Shown: positions 3,816 through 20,618 of the stretch, in pieces
How the letters are laid out: each line of letters starts with the position of its first letter
Position numbering within the stretch: the stretch's first letter is position 1
Origin: a virus
Length of the DNA: 20,618 bases
Virus record (IMG/VR): IMGVR_UViG_3300042863_002170
Coordinates: 1 to 20,618 of that record
Reading direction: 5' to 3' (one strand)
The notes under the pieces: model-generated
What the model was told of the DNA's origin: nothing
Seen by the model: only the letters and a program-made list of their open reading frames with translations
Database searches by the model: none
Made by a program: the position numbers and the translations under genes

Positions 3816-4655
3816 TTGACAAAAGAATTTGTACCAGAAAAAATATTACGCAACACAGCCAAATTTGCGCCAGATACACTACTACATCCTGTAGCCGAAT
3901 CAAAAACACATAACAATATCATTGCAGGTGCAGAGCAACAAGGCGATGACGATAAAGATTATAAAGAAGCATACCTAGGTGATCATCTTCGCTTCAAGAT
4001 GAAACGTGAAGGCAAACGTTTCTGGGCAGGCGATAACATCAGCGAATATGTCACAGAAGAAAATAAAGAACGCTTGATCGACGAAGCAGCCGAAGCATTT
4101 GAAACAGTGCTGGATCGACTGCTTATTGATCGAGAAACAGATCCCAACTCAAAAGGCACAGCAAGGCGCCTGGCCAAAATGTATTTTAAGGAGATCATGG
4201 AAGGTAGATATGAACCAGCACCAGACGCAACAGCGTTCCCAAATGATAGTGAAGACCGTTATGAAGGTATGCTTGTTGTTCGAAGCGAGCTTCGTTCTAT
4301 GTGTAGCCATCATCATCAACCCGTTAGCGGCGTTGCTTACATTGGTATTATTGCTGCTAATAAACTTATTGGTCTGTCTAAGTATACTCGCATTGCTCAG
4401 TGGTGTGCTCGCCGGGGCACACTTCAAGAAGAACTGTGTAATGACATTGCCCGAGAAATCTCCAAAGCTACCGACAGTGAAAACGTAGCAGTGTATATTC
4501 AGGCCACACATGGCTGCTGTGAGAATCGCGGCATCATGGCACATTCAAGTCTAACACAGACCACAGTGCTCAAAGGCGCATTCAAGGAAGACCAAGGTGT
4601 CAAGAAAGAATTCTTTGACAATATCAAACTACAACAGGACTTTGCACCACGATGA
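3816..4655 (+). CDS. folE: GTP cyclohydrolase I (FolE), first step of 7-deazaguanine synthesis
   Basis: A 279-residue enzyme converting GTP to dihydroneopterin triphosphate. It starts with TTG at 3816, preceded by a GGAGA ribosome site at 3805-3809. The catalytic domain carries SMCSHHHQPVSGVAYIG, with Cys163 and His166 matching the E. coli zinc ligands Cys110 and His113. It also carries GLSKYTRIAQWCARR and THGCCENRGI, with Cys234 matching Cys181. The N-terminal extension of about 70 residues is longer than in E. coli (222 residues). The gene has its own promoter and shares an ATGA with the HIT gene. With queD and queE in the window, the product most likely feeds preQ0 synthesis rather than folate. 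Confidence 0.93.
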   Translation: MTKEFVPEKILRNTAKFAPDTLLHPVAESKTHNNIIAGAEQQGDDDKDYKEAYLGDHLRFKMKREGKRFWAGDNISEYVTEENKERLIDEAAEAFETVLDRLLIDRETDPNSKGTARRLAKMYFKEIMEGRYEPAPDATAFPNDSEDRYEGMLVVRSELRSMCSHHHQPVSGVAYIGIIAANKLIGLSKYTRIAQWCARRGTLQEELCNDIAREISKATDSENVAVYIQATHGCCENRGIMAHSSLTQTTVLKGAFKEDQGVKKEFFDNIKLQQDFAPR

Positions 4656-5047
4656 CTGATTTAGAACAAGCAATGCAGGACAAAATTGCTCCCTGGAACT
4701 TGGAAGTCTCTGAGTTAACAGATTTTCATGTGGCTGTGTTTCAGGATCGATATCCGGTGACTCCGGGTCACTTGTTGTTTGTACCCAAATACAATACTGC
4801 GGGAGTGATCCAGGATTGTTTTGAATCTGCCATGGCCGAAGGCAACCGAATGGTCGCAGCCGGCGAATGCGATGCATTCAACGTGGGTATGAACTCGGGT
4901 GCTGCTGCTGGACAAACAGTGATGTATCCGCATATACATCTGATTCCCAGGCGTACAGGCGACTGCACAGATCCTGTGGGCGGTGTGCGTGGTGTTATTG
5001 CAGGCCAGGCCAACTACAAACAACCCGGCTATCAACAGCCGTCATAA
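4652..5047 (+). CDS. HIT-family (histidine triad) nucleotide hydrolase/transferase-like protein
   Basis: A 131-residue protein of normal HIT length. It has the family order: FQDRYPVTPGHLLFVPK near the N-terminus, NVGMNSGAAAGQTV before the active site, then PHIHLIPRRTGD. The canonical HxHxHxx triad is here YPHIHLI, so the first His is Tyr while the second and third His are kept. This is a variant triad whose activity cannot be assumed. HIT enzymes act on nucleoside phosphates such as AMP conjugates or Ap4A. The gene starts inside folE (ATGA at 4652-4655), so it is translationally coupled to folE. A nucleotide-related role beside the pathway is an inference. Confidence 0.85.
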   Translation: MTDLEQAMQDKIAPWNLEVSELTDFHVAVFQDRYPVTPGHLLFVPKYNTAGVIQDCFESAMAEGNRMVAAGECDAFNVGMNSGAAAGQTVMYPHIHLIPRRTGDCTDPVGGVRGVIAGQANYKQPGYQQPS

Positions 5048-5080
5048 GTAATGATCAAGCGGTCTTGGTGTCATTCCCGC

Positions 5081-5109
5081 TTTACAAACTCTGCCACCTA
5101 TGCTATAAT
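5081..5109 (+). promoter_or_regulatory. sigma70-type promoter for queD
   Basis: TTTACA (5081-5086), a 17-bp spacer and a perfect TATAAT (5104-5109), preceded by TG at 5101-5102 (extended -10). The start is predicted near 5116, so the mRNA would begin almost at the ribosome site AGGAG (5115-5119) upstream of ATG 5126. Confidence 0.7.
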
Positions 5110-5125
5110 CACATAGGAGAAAAAC

Positions 5126-5677
5126 ATGGCAAACTCATCAGCTGACTTAATCCGTCACTTCGAAGAAAACTTACAAAACACTAGACCAGTGAACTATAGG
5201 TACACCAGCACCAAAGAGTATCACGATTCTTTTCCCTGCGCTTATCGTCAATGGCGTGCTGATAGTCACTGTAATCTAATACACGGCTACAGTTTCAACA
5301 TGAAGTTTTACTTTGGTACCAATGATCTAGATGCTCGTAACTGGGCTGCTGACTACGGCGGACTTAAAGAACTCAAAGGTGTACTGGAAAGTCAATTTGA
5401 TCACACCTTGCTGGTGGCCGAAGACGATCCTGAACTGGCCTTTTACAAAGAGATGGAACGGCGCAAGTTGGCCAAACTGACCATCCTACCCAAACTGGGC
5501 TGTGAAGGTCTAGCTGATCAGTTGTACAAATATGTGAATGGCGTTTACATTCCCGACATGTGGGGCCAAGCTGAATCCAAACGCCTGTGGTGCTATCGTG
5601 TGGAAGTTCGCGAGACACAAAGCAACATGGCTTTCCGAGAAGGACATCGTGAGTGGAATGAAGATTTATTTGAATAA
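5126..5677 (+). CDS. queD: 6-carboxy-5,6,7,8-tetrahydropterin synthase (QueD)-like protein
   Basis: A 183-residue protein of the T-fold PTPS/QueD family. The pathway step is dihydroneopterin triphosphate to 6-carboxytetrahydropterin. The catalytic Cys49 (SHCNLIHGYSF), Asp92-His93 (QFDHTLLV) and Glu127 (GCEGLADQLYKYV) are all present, as is the VEVRET strand. Aligned to E. coli QueD, two of three zinc-ligand positions differ: FEAAHR is FPCAYR (Tyr40) and LHGHSF is IHGYSF (Tyr55), with only His53 kept. The start is fixed by AGGAG six bases upstream. Its own strong promoter sets it apart from the upstream HIT gene. It is longer than E. coli QueD (about 120 residues). Confidence 0.88.
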   Translation: MANSSADLIRHFEENLQNTRPVNYRYTSTKEYHDSFPCAYRQWRADSHCNLIHGYSFNMKFYFGTNDLDARNWAADYGGLKELKGVLESQFDHTLLVAEDDPELAFYKEMERRKLAKLTILPKLGCEGLADQLYKYVNGVYIPDMWGQAESKRLWCYRVEVRETQSNMAFREGHREWNEDLFE

Positions 5678-5686
5678 GAGGACATG

Positions 5687-6511
5687 ATGGATTTCAAGTA
5701 TGATATTGCAATGCTGCTGGCCACCCGTGGCAGAACAGAAAGTCTAGGTCGTAGTATTCGTAGCCTGGTTGAGCAAGCTGAAAATATTGAACGAGTGCAA
5801 CTTATGTTTGCATTTGATCGAGATGACGATGTTGGCACCACGTACTTTGCAACAGATCTGCAACCTTGGCTGGATGTAAGAGACATTGCATATACTGCAA
5901 TGAAGTTTGATCGTATGGGCTATATTGGTCTGCACAAATACAACAACGCCATGGCAGCACAAACCAGTGCCAAGTGGTTGTGTATCTGGAATGACGATGC
6001 TGTGATGGAGACTCAGGGTTGGGACACCGAGATCATGAAGTATGACGGTGAGTTCAAGCTGCTGAGCTATTGTACTCACAATCTACATCCATACAGCATT
6101 TTTCCTATTGTGCCGCGAAAATGGTATGATCTGCTGGGCTACATCAGTCCGCATCCCACACAAGACGGATGGGTTAGTCAACAGGCATATATGTTGGATA
6201 TCTACGAGCGTATTGCTGTGGATGTGCTGCACGACAGATATGATCTAACAGGCAACAACAACGACGAAACATTTCGCAATCGCCCCATGCTGGAAGGCAA
6301 ACCAGACGATCCTAGAGATTTTCACAGCAAACAAATGTTGGAATTACGGCACCGAGACTCGGCCAAACTGGCTACATACATGCGGTCCATTGGAATGAGC
6401 ACAGTGTTCTTTGAAAATGTTTTCAAAGGCACACAAGATCCCTGGGAAAAGCTGGCCAAAAACGATGTCAACAAACTTATGGTTCAGTTTGCCAATCCGC
6501 ATAGTAAATAA
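5687..6511 (+). CDS. GT-A type glycosyltransferase (family 2-like)
   Basis: A 274-residue protein opening MDFKYDIAMLLATRGRTESLGRS, the usual beta1 and R-x-R/K start of GT2-like enzymes. It is followed by VQLMFAFDRDDD and an acidic metal-site candidate in WLCIWNDDAVM (DxD-like NDD). A second ATG lies at 5684. ATG 5687 is preferred because the GAGGA site at 5678-5682 is too close to 5684. There is no membrane segment, so it likely acts in the cytoplasm. It sits between queD and the radical SAM gene with 3-9 base gaps, so it is probably co-transcribed from the queD promoter. The acceptor (virion protein, host glycan or modified base) is not indicated. Confidence 0.75.
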   Translation: MDFKYDIAMLLATRGRTESLGRSIRSLVEQAENIERVQLMFAFDRDDDVGTTYFATDLQPWLDVRDIAYTAMKFDRMGYIGLHKYNNAMAAQTSAKWLCIWNDDAVMETQGWDTEIMKYDGEFKLLSYCTHNLHPYSIFPIVPRKWYDLLGYISPHPTQDGWVSQQAYMLDIYERIAVDVLHDRYDLTGNNNDETFRNRPMLEGKPDDPRDFHSKQMLELRHRDSAKLATYMRSIGMSTVFFENVFKGTQDPWEKLAKNDVNKLMVQFANPHSK

Positions 6512-6514
6512 TCA

Positions 6515-8494
6515 ATGACACACAAAATTGCCTGGGTACAACCCAATTTCCAACAAGGTCCCAAAGAACTCAATGCTCACTACTTGCCATATTCAGCAGG
6601 TGTGATATGGAGTTATGCCATTACAGACCCAGAGATCAAACAAAACTTTGAACTCACTGAGTGGGTGTGGCGTAGAGATGAAGTTGAACCTGTTGTACAA
6701 CGATTAGCTCAAAATGATATTGTGGCGTTTAGCACCTATGTATGGAATCACAATTACAATTATGAGCTTGCCCGACGAATCAAAGAGATCAACCCTGATA
6801 TATTAACAGTGTTTGGCGGCCCTGAACCTGCTATCACTGACCCTGATCTGTTTCGCAAAAATCCTTTTATGGATGTGGTTATCACATTTGAAGGTGAAAT
6901 AACCTTTCGTCGATTACTGCAAGCCTACGAAAGTCGTAGCTTTGCACACATTCCCGGACTGCTGCTAAATCAAGATGGCGAGGCCGTAAACACTGGCGAA
7001 GCCAAACGCATTGAAAGTCTTGAAGAAGTTGTGAGTCCGTATCTTGCTGGAGTGTTTGACCAGTTGATTGAAGACAATCCTGGCATCATGTGGCAAGGCA
7101 CACTGGAAACCAGTCGAGGCTGCCCGTTTGCTTGCACATTCTGTGACTGGGGCAGCTTGACCTACAACAAGGTCAAGAAGTTTGAACTGGAGCGTGTGTT
7201 TGAAGAACTGGAATGGATGGCCAAAAGAAACTTTGACTTTATCTCTATCACCGACGCTAACTTTGGCATGTTTGCCGAACGCGACAGCTTGATTGCAGAC
7301 AAGATTATTGAGTGTCAAGAAAAGTACGGATCACCCCGAACATTTTCTGTGGCCTGGGCCAAGAATCAAAAGAAGGAAGTGGTTGATATTGTTAAAAAAC
7401 TTCTGGATGCACGTGGCTTCAATCAAGGACTGACACTGAGTGTGCAAAGTCTGGATCTTGATGTGCTGGAAAATATTCGTCGCAAGAACATGGAAATGAA
7501 CAAGCTGAATGAAGTGTTTGAATTGTGTGAGCAACGCAATATTCCCACATACACAGAACTGATTCTGGGACTGCCAGGCGAAAGTCTTGAGTCTTGGAAA
7601 AAGAACTTCTGGACCTTGTTTGAAATGGGCAACCATACTGGACTCACAGTGTTTCAAGCACAGTTGCTGGAAAATGCTGAAATGAACCTGCTGCAAAAGA
7701 AACTGTTCAAGATCTCCAGTCAGCCTGTGACTGACTACTTCTCGGGCAGCTACAGCAACGAACACGTGGAGGAAAGCATTGACATTATTACTGGCACCAA
7801 AGACATGCCGTTTGACATCATGCTGGATGCACATGTGTTTTCATGGTTCATCAACACATTCCACATCAATGGGGTGAGCACCTTGTTGAGCCGCTTGATG
7901 TTCAAATACAGCAAGGTGCCTTACAGTGATTTCTACGATGAACTGTTTGAATTCATGCAACAAGATGAGTGGCTGCATCGTGAGCAAGAAGAAGTTCGCG
8001 AATACTATCGCAGCTGGATGACCACAGGCAAGATCAATCACCCCAACATTGGTATTGAAATACACGGCTGGAATCTAATCCACAGAACCATACTAAACAT
8101 GCATGTGGAAAAACAATACAACGGAATTTTTGACATGCTGGAAAGGTTCATGGCACGGTACAACCTGCCGGCAGACCTGTTGAACAGCATCATGAGATTC
8201 CAACGTAGGTATCTGGTAGCATATGATGCCATGAACACCTATCCTGAAAATCTTGAGCTAGACTACAACATCTGGGAATATCTCAGCTTTGATCATGACT
8301 TGGTGCATGCACCTACTGTGTATCAACTGGAGTTTCCAGAAGACAAAACCATGAGCTTTCCCAAGTTCCTGGAACTGTTTTATTTTGCACGGCGACGAAA
8401 CTTTGGCAAAGCCATGGTAGAACGAATTGGTCAAGACTCAAATGGAGCACGGCGTGGCGACGGTGCTAGTCGTGCCAAAATCACAGTAGAATGA
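6515..8494 (+). CDS. B12-binding-domain radical SAM enzyme
   Basis: A 659-residue protein. The N-terminal 140 residues look like a cobalamin-binding Rossmann domain (WVQPNF opening; VAFSTYVWN; TVFGGPEPA; VVITFEGE). The radical SAM core follows with Cys203, Cys207 and Cys210 (RGCPFACTFCDWG), the CX3CX2C motif for the 4Fe-4S cluster that cleaves S-adenosylmethionine. A GLPGES segment lies later in the barrel. A long C-terminal extension of about 200 residues has no motif I know. Such enzymes methylate or rearrange unreactive carbons in cofactors, lipids and sugars. The flanking glycosyltransferase and SGNH genes suggest a glycan or small-molecule substrate. The classic B12 DxHxxG motif is not seen, so cobalamin use is uncertain. 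The start is 3 bases after the previous stop. Confidence 0.82.
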   Translation: MTHKIAWVQPNFQQGPKELNAHYLPYSAGVIWSYAITDPEIKQNFELTEWVWRRDEVEPVVQRLAQNDIVAFSTYVWNHNYNYELARRIKEINPDILTVFGGPEPAITDPDLFRKNPFMDVVITFEGEITFRRLLQAYESRSFAHIPGLLLNQDGEAVNTGEAKRIESLEEVVSPYLAGVFDQLIEDNPGIMWQGTLETSRGCPFACTFCDWGSLTYNKVKKFELERVFEELEWMAKRNFDFISITDANFGMFAERDSLIADKIIECQEKYGSPRTFSVAWAKNQKKEVVDIVKKLLDARGFNQGLTLSVQSLDLDVLENIRRKNMEMNKLNEVFELCEQRNIPTYTELILGLPGESLESWKKNFWTLFEMGNHTGLTVFQAQLLENAEMNLLQKKLFKISSQPVTDYFSGSYSNEHVEESIDIITGTKDMPFDIMLDAHVFSWFINTFHINGVSTLLSRLMFKYSKVPYSDFYDELFEFMQQDEWLHREQEEVREYYRSWMTTGKINHPNIGIEIHGWNLIHRTILNMHVEKQYNGIFDMLERFMARYNLPADLLNSIMRFQRRYLVAYDAMNTYPENLELDYNIWEYLSFDHDLVHAPTVYQLEFPEDKTMSFPKFLELFYFARRRNFGKAMVERIGQDSNGARRGDGASRAKITVE

Positions 8495-9150
8495 CCCGAC
8501 TGTTTGCATTTGGTTGTAGTTTTACTAACTATCGCTGGAGCACATGGGCAGACTGTTTGGCACCAGAATTTGATAGTTTTGAGAACTGGGGACAGAGCGG
8601 GGCAGGCAACGAATTCATATTTAACAGCGTAATGGAGGCCGATCAGCGTCAGCAATTTGAGCCGCAAGATACTGTGATAGTGTGCTGGACCACTGCCACC
8701 CGAGAAGACAGATATGTCAATGAACGTTGGCACACACTGGGAAATATGTTTAGTTGCCCGATATATAACAAAGACTACCTTGCCACACACATTGATGAGC
8801 GAGGACTACTAATAAAAACCCTAGCTTATATCAAGGCAGTAAAAACACTGTTGGAAAAACGACAAGTGCAATGGAAGTTTTTATCCATGGATCATTTTGA
8901 TTCTCTAAATATCTATCAAGATGTAGTTGATTGTATTTTGCCTAGTTATCGAACTGTGCTGTTCAAAGACGGATGGCCCAACAGAAACGGTGACCCTCAT
9001 CCCAGTCCTGCAGAGCATTTGGCCTATTTGGATGAAGTGTTGCCGGGCTGGGTGACAACACAATCTACTCGTGTTATAATGCAACAAGAAAGTATCAATC
9101 TAAATAAAGATCCCCGCAAGTCGGGAATGACAAAGGTAACAAGACTATGA
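8491..9150 (+). CDS. SGNH/GDSL-type hydrolase-like protein
   Basis: A 219-residue protein with block I LFAFGCSFT (Ser10 as nucleophile candidate), a glycine/asparagine block NWGQSGAGNE near residues 32-41, and a block V-like DPHPSPAEH near residues 169-177, giving Asp and His of a Ser-Asp-His arrangement. This is the standard order of SGNH esterases and acyl-modifying enzymes. No signal peptide is seen, so it acts in the cytoplasm or is carried by the virion. ATG 8491 overlaps the radical SAM stop (ATGA). Its 3' end contains the promoter for queE, and its stop overlaps the queE start. The substrate is unknown; deacetylation or acylation of a sugar fits the neighbours. Confidence 0.72.
   Translation: MTRLFAFGCSFTNYRWSTWADCLAPEFDSFENWGQSGAGNEFIFNSVMEADQRQQFEPQDTVIVCWTTATREDRYVNERWHTLGNMFSCPIYNKDYLATHIDERGLLIKTLAYIKAVKTLLEKRQVQWKFLSMDHFDSLNIYQDVVDCILPSYRTVLFKDGWPNRNGDPHPSPAEHLAYLDEVLPGWVTTQSTRVIMQQESINLNKDPRKSGMTKVTRL
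9052..9080 (+). promoter_or_regulatory. sigma70-type promoter inside the SGNH gene, driving queE
   Basis: GTGACA (9052-9057), a 17-bp spacer and a perfect TATAAT (9075-9080). The start is predicted near 9087, giving a leader of about 60 bases to queE ATG 9147. The leader holds CTAAATA (9100-9106) and a short CCCG/CGGG hairpin at 9113-9125. Confidence 0.62.
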
Positions 9151-9992
9151 AACTTAAAATTAGCGAACTATTTTATTCTGCACAAGGCGAAGGCCGTTAT
9201 ATTGGTGTACCCAGTGTGTTCTTGAGAACATTTGGATGCAACTTTACCTGTTCAGGATTTGGATGCAAACCTGGCGAAGTCAGCAAAGAGGCTGATGAGG
9301 TTGCAAAAACAGTTGAACTGTACAAAACATTTGAAGAACTTCCGCTGGTGAGCACAGGCTGCGACAGCTATGCCAGCTGGCATCCAGACTTCAAACATCT
9401 AAGCCCCACATTCACTCCTGAGCAATTGGTAGAAAAAATGGCTGCACTGCTACCAAACGGCAACTGGCAACAGCCCAATGGCAATCCGGTCCACTTGGTT
9501 ATCACTGGTGGTGAACCATTGCTGGGTTGGCAACGTGCTTATCCAGAACTACTGGACCTGTTGCACGAACGTGGACTACGGCACATCACATTTGAAACCA
9601 ATGGCACCCAAGATCTCACTAGAGACTTCAGAAACTATCTTGCAAACTGGCACGGTGAAATTACATTTAGTGTAAGTCCCAAGCTATCGGTATCAGGCGA
9701 AACCTGGGCAGATGCTATCAAGCCCAACATTGTGCTTGATTACGAAACTCACGGAGTCACATACTTGAAGTTTGTGGTTGAAAAAGTCACAGACTTTGAC
9801 GAACTAGATCGTGCTGTTGATGAATATCGACTAGCAGGTTTTGCTGGTCCTGTGTTTGTGATGCCAGTAGGCGGTGTAGTTAGTGTGTATGATGGCAACA
9901 GAATTCATGTTGCAGACGAAGCACTCAAACGAGGTTACTGGTATAGTCCACGGCTGCATGTGGACTTGTGGGGAAATGGTTGGGGGAAATAA
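9147..9992 (+). CDS. queE: 7-carboxy-7-deazaguanine synthase (QueE), radical SAM, atypical cluster motif
   Basis: A 281-residue QueE that ring-contracts carboxytetrahydropterin to 7-carboxy-7-deazaguanine. Family marks are SELFYSAQGEGRYIGVPSVF (residues 6-25), LRTFGCNFTC, VITGGEPLL and FETNGTQ. Canonical enzymes have CX3CX2C. Here Cys31 and Cys35 are followed by an insertion, and the GCDSY segment that matches the usual YCDT places the third ligand at Cys72, giving CX3CX36C. Cys40 inside the insertion is an alternative ligand. The insertion makes it longer than the E. coli enzyme (about 220 residues). ATG 9147 overlaps the end of the SGNH gene; a promoter lies 60-90 bases upstream. Confidence 0.92.
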   Translation: MKLKISELFYSAQGEGRYIGVPSVFLRTFGCNFTCSGFGCKPGEVSKEADEVAKTVELYKTFEELPLVSTGCDSYASWHPDFKHLSPTFTPEQLVEKMAALLPNGNWQQPNGNPVHLVITGGEPLLGWQRAYPELLDLLHERGLRHITFETNGTQDLTRDFRNYLANWHGEITFSVSPKLSVSGETWADAIKPNIVLDYETHGVTYLKFVVEKVTDFDELDRAVDEYRLAGFAGPVFVMPVGGVVSVYDGNRIHVADEALKRGYWYSPRLHVDLWGNGWGK

Positions 9993-18420: not shown

Positions 18421-18597
18421 ATGAAACTCAATGTCAGCATGCAAAATCGTCTCTGGGAAACTTTGGAAGTGCCAGGACCGGGCTACAATGTGGTAGAGAT
18501 CCTGGACTCTATACAGAGTGCTCGAGCAGCAGGGCAGATTGTATGGGTAGATTGGGATCAACCTTTACGGCTTGACATTCAAATAGTTGAGCAGTAA
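18421..18597 (+). CDS. small protein, 58 residues, unknown
   Basis: ATG 18421 to TAA 18595-18597: MKLNVSMQNRLWETLEVPGP followed by GYNVVEILDSIQSARAAGQI and an end VWVDWDQPLRLDIQIVEQ. The composition and the 8-base gap to the previous stop support a real gene. Its 3' end holds the tmRNA promoter. No family is recognised. Confidence 0.65.
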   Translation: MKLNVSMQNRLWETLEVPGPGYNVVEILDSIQSARAAGQIVWVDWDQPLRLDIQIVEQ

Positions 18598-18600
18598 AAT
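18572..18600 (+). promoter_or_regulatory. sigma70-type promoter of the tmRNA gene
   Basis: Consensus TTGACA (18572-18577), 17 bp, TAAAAT (18595-18600). The start is predicted near 18607, just upstream of the acceptor half of the permuted tmRNA. Confidence 0.7.
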
Positions 18601-18671
18601 ACAAGTTAAGACTGTATGAAGTAGACAGAAAAGGATTCTGGACGCGGGTTCGACTCCCGCCAGGTCCACCA

Positions 18672-18744
18672 TAAAACACATTGTCCTAGGCTGTGACCTA
18701 GTCCATCAGAAGTCCGAAGAGACAGAAGCAGTGTGTTTTATAAT
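18672..18744 (+). other. intervening segment of the permuted tmRNA
   Basis: It joins the CCA end of the acceptor half to the 5' end of the coding half. ATAAAACACA (18671-18680) pairs with TGTGTTTTAT (18732-18741), 10 bp, extending the acceptor stem. Inside is a CTAGG/CCTAG hairpin. It is expected to be removed by RNase P and 3' processing to give two RNA pieces. Confidence 0.8.
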
Positions 18745-18929
18745 GGGCCTGCCATGGTTTCGACAGGGTCACAAGTACGGAAATGGACAGTCCGGCAATG
18801 TAGAAGCCGTTAGGGTTGGGGAAGCTCGGCCGTAGACACAAAAAAAGTAAAAGCAAACGACTCACAGTTCGCATTGGCTGCTTGAAAAAGCAACCTAGGG
18901 TAAGACATACCTCGTAACAGAAACTCAAG

Positions 18930-18952
18930 AAAGCACTCTCGGGTGCTTTTTT
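18930..18952 (+). terminator. intrinsic terminator of tmRNA
   Basis: AAAGCAC (18930-18936) pairs with GTGCTTT (18943-18949), followed by T residues to 18952. Confidence 0.75.
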
Positions 18953-18968
18953 ATTGGTAAATATTTTT

Positions 18969-19828: not shown

Positions 19829-19980
19829 TTTCTTGCTACGGCAAGAAATTATATTGAAACACATTTTCAATCTGAATTGACAGATACAAACAACCAAGGG
19901 GATCCGCTGGACTTGAGCCAGGTGCATTCTGAATTGACAGAAATAAGGTTGTAAGGAGAGCCGAGTGTGTTTCAATATAA
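19829..19980 (+). ncRNA. unrecognised structured RNA: 8-bp hairpin stacked on a 15-bp long-range stem
   Basis: TTTCTTGC/GCAAGAAA (19829-19848) closes a UACG tetraloop. It is followed at once by TTATATTGAAACACA (19849-19863), which pairs perfectly with TGTGTTTCAATATAA (19966-19980). Inside the 102-base enclosed part are two copies of TCTGAATTGACAGA (19871-19884 and 19928-19941), a CAACC/GGTTG pair around the second copy, and a CTGG/CCAG hairpin (19907-19920). No open frame fits. It precedes tRNA-Glu by 7 bases and is probably on the same transcript. I do not recognise the class. The stretch 19764-19828 before it holds nothing I can name. Confidence 0.6.
19871..19941 (+). repeat. two 14-bp direct repeats inside the structured RNA
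   Basis: TCTGAATTGACAGA occurs at 19871-19884 and 19928-19941, start to start 57 bases. Each copy can form a small CTG/CAG hairpin with a 6-base loop. Confidence 0.8.
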
Positions 19981-20489: not shown

Positions 20490-20582
20490 GGCGTTATAGG
20501 ATGTAACGGGGTGCGGTTTGCCTCAACCTTGAATGATCATCAAGGTTTTCTTGCGTGGGTTCGAATCCCACATGATGCCCCA
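20490..20582 (+). tRNA. aberrant tRNA-like gene (His-like ends, possible GAU anticodon)
   Basis: 93 bases with encoded CCA. GCGTTAT (20491-20497) pairs with ATGATGC (20572-20578). An extra 5' G faces C73, the histidine-tRNA signature. The T arm GTGGG-TTCGAAT-CCCAC is perfect. The anticodon-like arm is 8 bp (AACCTTGA/TCAAGGTT, 20525-20547) with loop ATGATCA, which would read GAU (Ile). A GGGG/CCTC D-like stem sits after a 10-base linker instead of 2. Either a degenerate tRNA, a mis-folded prediction or an unusual functional RNA. The remaining 36 bases of the window show nothing I can name. Confidence 0.5.
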
Positions 20583-20618
20583 AGTTATGCAGTTTTTGTC
20601 TGGAGTAATATTCCTGGA

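Follow-up and report, generated by a model that had tools for sequence, protein, structure and literature searches.

The window analysed here, a linear fragment of 20,618 bases that forms one IMG/VR virus record, carries near its right end what reads as a tmRNA gene in two pieces, and so raises the questions of whether this is a genuine permuted gene of a phage, where such a gene came from and what the long segment between its halves might be. We judge it quite probable that the locus is a functional-looking, beta-type permuted tmRNA of a large phage, with a spacer drawn from a family of phage hairpins whose usual place is against tRNA CCA ends and whose members are exchanged as cassettes.

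The gene occupies positions 18572-18953 of the forward strand, in the order promoter, acceptor half, spacer, coding half and terminator. ARAGORN called it as a permuted tmRNA (tmRNA*) with the tag ANDSQFALAA, together with seven tRNAs elsewhere in the window. Both permuted models of Rfam agreed: tmRNA_permuted (RF04321) matched with 114.6 bits (E 4e-22) over positions 1-213 of 213, and beta_tmRNA (RF01850) with 108.8 bits (E 1e-32) over positions 1-331 of 331, above their gathering cut-offs of 47 and 84 bits respectively. In both alignments the acceptor half precedes the coding half and the model is covered end to end. The first-pass annotation of this DNA had described a two-piece gene with this tag and with its acceptor half first, and had named covariance models as the means of checking it; the two models bear that description out.

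A sigma-70-type promoter, TTGACA-17-TAAAAT, lies at 18572-18600 (+) with 11 of 12 consensus matches, and the RF01850 alignment starts at 18558. The acceptor half (18610-18671, +), as placed by ARAGORN, the Rfam models and helix counts, consists of a leader strand beginning GACTG, the T arm, the acceptor 3' strand CAGGTCC, an A and an encoded CCA (18669-18671). It is followed by a spacer of 73 nt (18672-18744, +), predicted to be removed on maturation and recognised by comparison as a member of the tRNA-end hairpin family, with hairpin arms at 18661-18683 and 18729-18751 (+) and a variable core in between. The 5' part of the coding half (18745-18852, +; Rfam alignment and helix counts) contains the acceptor 5' strand GGGCCTG with G3-U70, a D-loop-like segment, the P2 strand and, at 18788-18792 (+), the strand CAGTC that pairs with the leader. 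The tag reading frame, ANDSQFALAA and a TGA stop (18853-18885, +; gene positions 275-307 by ARAGORN), gives the tag a hydrophobic Ala-Ala end. The gene closes with the terminator hairpin AAAGCAC-TCTCGG-GTGCTTT and a T-rich run (18930-18953, +), seen in sequence and fold, a palindrome that the consensus scan reported on the minus strand only; the MFE fold of the whole gene likewise ends in a terminator-like hairpin and then U's. The two halves jointly form the acceptor stem, CAGGUCC with GGGCCUG, of 7 bp with G-U as the third pair, and the spacer stem AUAAAACACA/UGUGUUUUAU has 10 bp. These pairings, and the promoter and terminator of the gene's own, were already part of the first-pass annotation and stand as it gave them; the reading of the spacer as a shared, exchangeable hairpin was absent from it.

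That annotation had left room for the contig to be bacterial chromosome, and it proves to be of phage origin by the virus record, by its jumbo-phage-like proteins and by a gene order held in common with a 214-kb viral contig, in which the succession of QueE-like gene, exonuclease and tmRNA is kept and the tmRNA stands at the same place. The phage-type exonuclease/RNase H of the window has its best isolate matches in jumbo phages, and MazG-like and acyl-carrier proteins are also encoded. Two further contigs (L236 and L313) have the same neighbourhood as the window, each with its own tmRNA, and a third (L305) combines neighbouring genes common with the window and a permuted tmRNA. At 3816-9992 lie FolE- and QueD-like proteins and a QueE-like radical SAM protein, whose likeness suggests a deazaguanine DNA-modification pathway; a 659-aa B12-binding radical SAM protein adjoins them. 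No close relatives of the downstream protein were confirmed in IMG/VR, and no close phage isolate was found by tmRNA DNA, the coverage of the query being at most 17%; we speak of a 'freshwater-type' phage on the strength of its relatives. The window also contains sigma-70-like promoters with at least 10 of 12 matches, 14 of them forward (coding strand) and 3 reverse, and, at about 20490-20583, a candidate long-variable-arm tRNA (possibly Ser, anticodon TGA) that received no ARAGORN call.

In 37 aligned phage relatives, picked by their 3' acceptor strand, the third acceptor pair is U-G in all 37; the P2 helix between leader and coding half is 100% paired, with both-sided changes in 4 of its 6 pairs, and pairing of the outer leader helix amounts to 53% of cells across this diverse set. 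The fold of the window gene has a z-score of -3.4, and none of 100 shuffled sequences was equally stable. SmpB was detected in the positive controls and in 0 of 20 related phage contigs, the window's own genome being a fragment, so that host SmpB is presumably used; SmpB encoded in the same genome is usual for bacteria, and is unnecessary where that of a host serves. The missing SmpB is what might lead one to regard the window tmRNA as a decayed or non-functional passenger, which we think extremely unlikely given that promoter, stems, tag frame and terminator are all intact, that the helix joining the halves covaries across phages and that relatives keep the locus at the same place.

By analogy with the tmRNA family, a single transcript from the gene's own promoter would fold into a tRNA-Ala-like domain, and processing would remove the spacer to leave a CCA-ended acceptor piece base-paired to the coding piece. 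G3-U70 is the alanine acceptor pair, through which host AlaRS would charge the tmRNA; host SmpB would then permit the rescue of stalled ribosomes, with ANDSQFALAA added to proteins as an LAA-ended degradation tag. The window tmRNA plausibly acts in ribosome rescue and tagging in this manner.

A permuted gene in a phage genome had been thought rare in the first-pass annotation, and this we cannot uphold. A single strict DNA pattern retrieved from IMG/VR at least 109 stretches of this gene's layout, nearly all of the retrieved loci being confirmed as permuted by ARAGORN (the phage tmRNA sample was limited to genes whose CCA is encoded and whose spacer is bounded). Among the 133 unique tmRNAs of phage isolates in PMC9004378, 53 are two-piece, with 50 from marine or aquatic phages. 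The tmRNA database holds 79 bacteriophage sequences (PMC11915505). Two-piece tmRNA in phage was thus already known, and the new part is the hairpin family of the spacer, which is apparently undescribed. Tags differ among these genes: phage permuted tmRNAs with long tags of 20-31 aa, such as ANADTFDFSAMSFTGNTVRGAANESRFALAA, occur in L004, L009, L014, L015, L037, L075 and others, and some long phage tags end in FAV, not LAA, and are possibly non-degrading. In the syntenic tmRNA of G003 (214 kb; L102, 2172-2617) the tag, ANANTKGEVAINARGVKIARRAAVLA, is long, differs from that of the window and lacks the LAA end; the tRNA domain is about 81% identical to that of the window.

The first-pass annotation had further proposed that the gene was captured from a host with permuted ssrA. 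The match of the window gene to the beta-type model and the closeness of ANDSQFALAA to host tags such as ANDEQFALAA would agree with this; as a recent event we nevertheless consider it very unlikely, because in a tRNA-domain tree the window gene clusters with phage genes only (support 1.00), save one phage-like MAG contig, with Burkholderiales permuted genes apart from its clade, and because the acceptor stem GGGCCUG/CAGGUCC, found in 64 of 111 phage-set entries, is present in 0 of 25 Burkholderiales permuted genes, a result that stands although bacterial loci, L151, L152 and L160 at least, had entered the 111-entry set. Comparison with bacterial ssrA, also suggested at that stage, points the same way: similarity to the window gene over its full length was confined to phage or phage-like contigs, and the best matches in 399 Burkholderiales genomes were short pieces, mostly of the T-arm. 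A permuted gene over the cut-off was found in 3 of 120 sampled Burkholderiales and in 26 of 61 genomes of one family. The bacterial AND-x-QFALAA genes found were one-piece, except two on phage-like MAG contigs, which speaks against recent capture as well; identification of the host by its tag was rejected on the same grounds. Two short MAG contigs with permuted tmRNA and tRNA arrays (L116 and L121) have the appearance of phage sequence that was assigned to bacterial bins. An ancient capture from a host may have taken place.

The spacer follows a course separate from that of the gene around it. Across phage tmRNAs, the identity of spacers correlates with that of coding halves at r 0.12, versus r 0.62 for leader and coding half; spacers 100% identical are combined with coding halves that share no more than 43-71% identity, the converse also occurs, and 42 pairs combine a spacer identity of at least 90% with a coding identity of at most 72%. 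No such exchange was seen among 19 bacterial permuted genes. Spacer length has a median of 63 nt in the phage set and ranges from 4 to 48 nt in bacteria. The 23-nt core of the window spacer recurs in nine other viral contigs, in none of the nine within a tmRNA; the copies stand mostly directly after a tRNA CCA (Lys, Glu, Gln, Arg and others) and are 92-99% identical to the window spacer over 66-69 nt, that of L234 lying behind another hairpin of the same family. L236, syntenic with the window, has a different tmRNA spacer and bears the window's element behind tRNA-Glu instead, and four more tmRNA spacer types match the cores of tRNA-end hairpins. The core gave no match in 50,697 phage records of an isolate collection. 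Spacer and tRNA-end copies gave no significant match beyond tmRNA and tRNA among 4227 Rfam families, and a known ribozyme or RNA family was rejected for the spacer accordingly. All sequence data are metagenomic DNA; near-identical combinations turn up in separate metagenomes (e.g. L039, L057 and L093), which argues against assembly chimeras, though not against all of them, and some chimeric assembly at conserved tRNA blocks may have occurred. In four contigs (L059, L068, L081 and L083) the tmRNA spacer is without the usual stem and contains a small frame, MILPSVLGLVIFVLLIVFL, preceded by AAGGA, a spacer pattern restricted to these four.

Members of the hairpin family share the arms CCA|TATNNAAACACATT ... 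AATGTGTTTNNATATGG and vary in their cores. Another hairpin of the window, at 19849-19980 (+), repeats the arms of the spacer hairpin (TTATATTGAAACACA / TGTGTTTCAATATAA); it lies just before tRNA-Glu (19988) and has no CCA preceding it. A scan of viral contigs for the arms only (AAACACATT ... AATGTGTTT), a pattern that holds no tRNA and by which part of the hairpin sample is thus arm-selected, returned 81 elements; tRNAs were present in 80 of 80 loci, and 63 of the 81 elements begin exactly 6 or 7 nt past a tRNA end. An inverted arm taking in the CCA was found for 134 of 1315 phage tRNAs, versus 1 after shuffling, and the outer arm positions vary yet stay complementary: pairing holds in 115 of 128 cells, where shuffled arms averaged 89 and reached 102 at most. 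Empty and filled sites with matching flanks were found in three pairs of contigs (L258/L299, L305/L313 and L283/L242), the insertions starting right after CCA and ending ...ATATGG. Among loci chosen for their tmRNA only, a hairpin follows tRNA-Lys(UUU) in 6 of 8 cases versus 6 of 139 for all other tRNAs (Fisher p 2e-6). In the tRNA arrays L244-L315, a tail hairpin is found preferentially behind tRNA-Lys(UUU), Glu(UUC) and Gln(UUG), which are the three known for modified 2-thio-U34. Tail hairpins also extend to one of two CTA-anticodon tRNAs (possible amber suppressors) that lie near permuted tmRNA in jumbo-size phage contigs (L136, 16016-16090, which bears the hairpin, and L138, 7561-7636).

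The cores are not uniformly strong RNA folds, an idea rejected on a mean fold z of only -0.5 over 106 cores, so that evidence for a conserved fold applies to some cores only, such as one family of 13 members, mostly on Lys, with covariation in two hairpins and in a loop that is self-complementary (TCCGGA, CCCGGG, GCCGGC). The Lys/Ser hairpin core in L259, L261, L270, L273, L286 and L298 has this covarying loop, as in kissing-loop dimers. Our literature search found no description of tRNA-end hairpins or of tmRNA spacer elements. Fifteen element-bearing contigs, most probably incomplete, contained neither a reverse transcriptase, for which reason a retroelement primed at CCA was rejected, nor a Y1 transposase, for which reason an REP/RAYT or IS200-type element was rejected; mobility would then proceed by no known agent.

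Taken across these sites, the hairpins are, as judged by sequence comparison, gained, lost and exchanged as cassettes, and we infer that the exchange is recent and phage-driven. The route that we favour would be phage-driven exchange or insertion of a non-autonomous hairpin at CCA ends: large freshwater-type phages would carry undescribed, mobile, structured hairpins that insert precisely behind tRNA CCA with a preference for Lys-UUU, Glu-UUC and Gln-UUG, with the CCA-complementary TGG right end as part of the targeting and the permuted tmRNA spacer as a further landing place. To this full reading we give an even chance. The hairpin would sit in the tmRNA spacer because in a permuted gene the tRNA-like CCA end is adjoined by a segment that is thrown away, an intron-like safe place; the spacer is probably cut out and therefore tolerated. 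A quite possible alternative, to which we give slightly less than even chances, is that the hairpins, the window spacer included, are RNA processing signals, in which a long helix that includes the CCA end directs where polycistronic tRNA precursors and the permuted pre-tmRNA are cut, and that exchange reflects homologous recombination at conserved tRNA blocks, not transposition. This would account for the distance of exactly 6 nt between tRNA end and hairpin, for arms whose covariation runs on through CCA/TGG, for the presence of hairpins where processing is needed and for the similar short stems of bacterial permuted tmRNAs, and selected hairpins that only recombine would give a similar picture. 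Such a signal sits less easily with the roughly 90% of examined phage tRNAs that have no hairpin, despite loci partly selected for it, with clean empty sites between identical flanks, and with long variable cores, one of them with its own covarying fold, that a mere cleavage site would not need.

The bacterial stems bear on a further possibility, which we find rather doubtful: that the spacer belongs natively to permuted tmRNA as its intervening segment and that the tRNA-end copies arose by secondary spread of tmRNA spacers. The arms of Burkholderiales permuted genes, for example AAGCGCATT...AGTGTGTTT, come close to those of the phages, whereas cores of tens of nt are a feature of the phage set, most core families are known from tRNA ends alone and 300 Burkholderiales genomes gave no match to the arm pattern. 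Given the similar short stems in bacterial spacers, permuted tmRNA may have had the stem as its own from early on, and phages would then have added or exchanged the cores.

The spacers of phage two-piece tmRNAs have so far been treated as filler. By way of a common hairpin family with empty sites, the spacer described here connects the tmRNA with the large tRNA arrays that phages carry, and the family offers a testable route for the shuffling of phage tRNA and tmRNA genes. One may then ask whether such hairpins are the reason that permuted tmRNA has its layout, or that it has persisted, and the tRNA preference opens a test of hairpins in processing versus counter-defence.

Set beside known systems, the window gene resembles the beta-type permuted tmRNA (RF01850, RF04321) in its order of halves, G3-U70, T arm and tag frame ending ALAA, and differs from it by a phage-specific acceptor stem, an encoded CCA and a long spacer that is a shared hairpin element. 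Phage-borne permuted tmRNA is also known from phage Melnitz and other aquatic phages, for which the available text of PMC9004378 likewise proposes rescue or tagging during infection; the Melnitz gene is described there as alpha-type and linked to a glutamine riboswitch, whereas the window gene matches the beta model, and that text contains no description of spacer exchange. REP/MITE-like mobile palindromes have in common with the phage hairpins that they are small and non-coding, with empty sites and many copies; the phage hairpins differ in lying at the tRNA CCA end, in keeping their arms while their cores vary and in having no Y1 transposase in the 15 contigs. The intervening segment of bacterial permuted tmRNA, unlike the phage spacer in its short loop and in the lack of exchange among the 19 genes, shares with it a stem right after the acceptor 3' end and a TGG at the right end.
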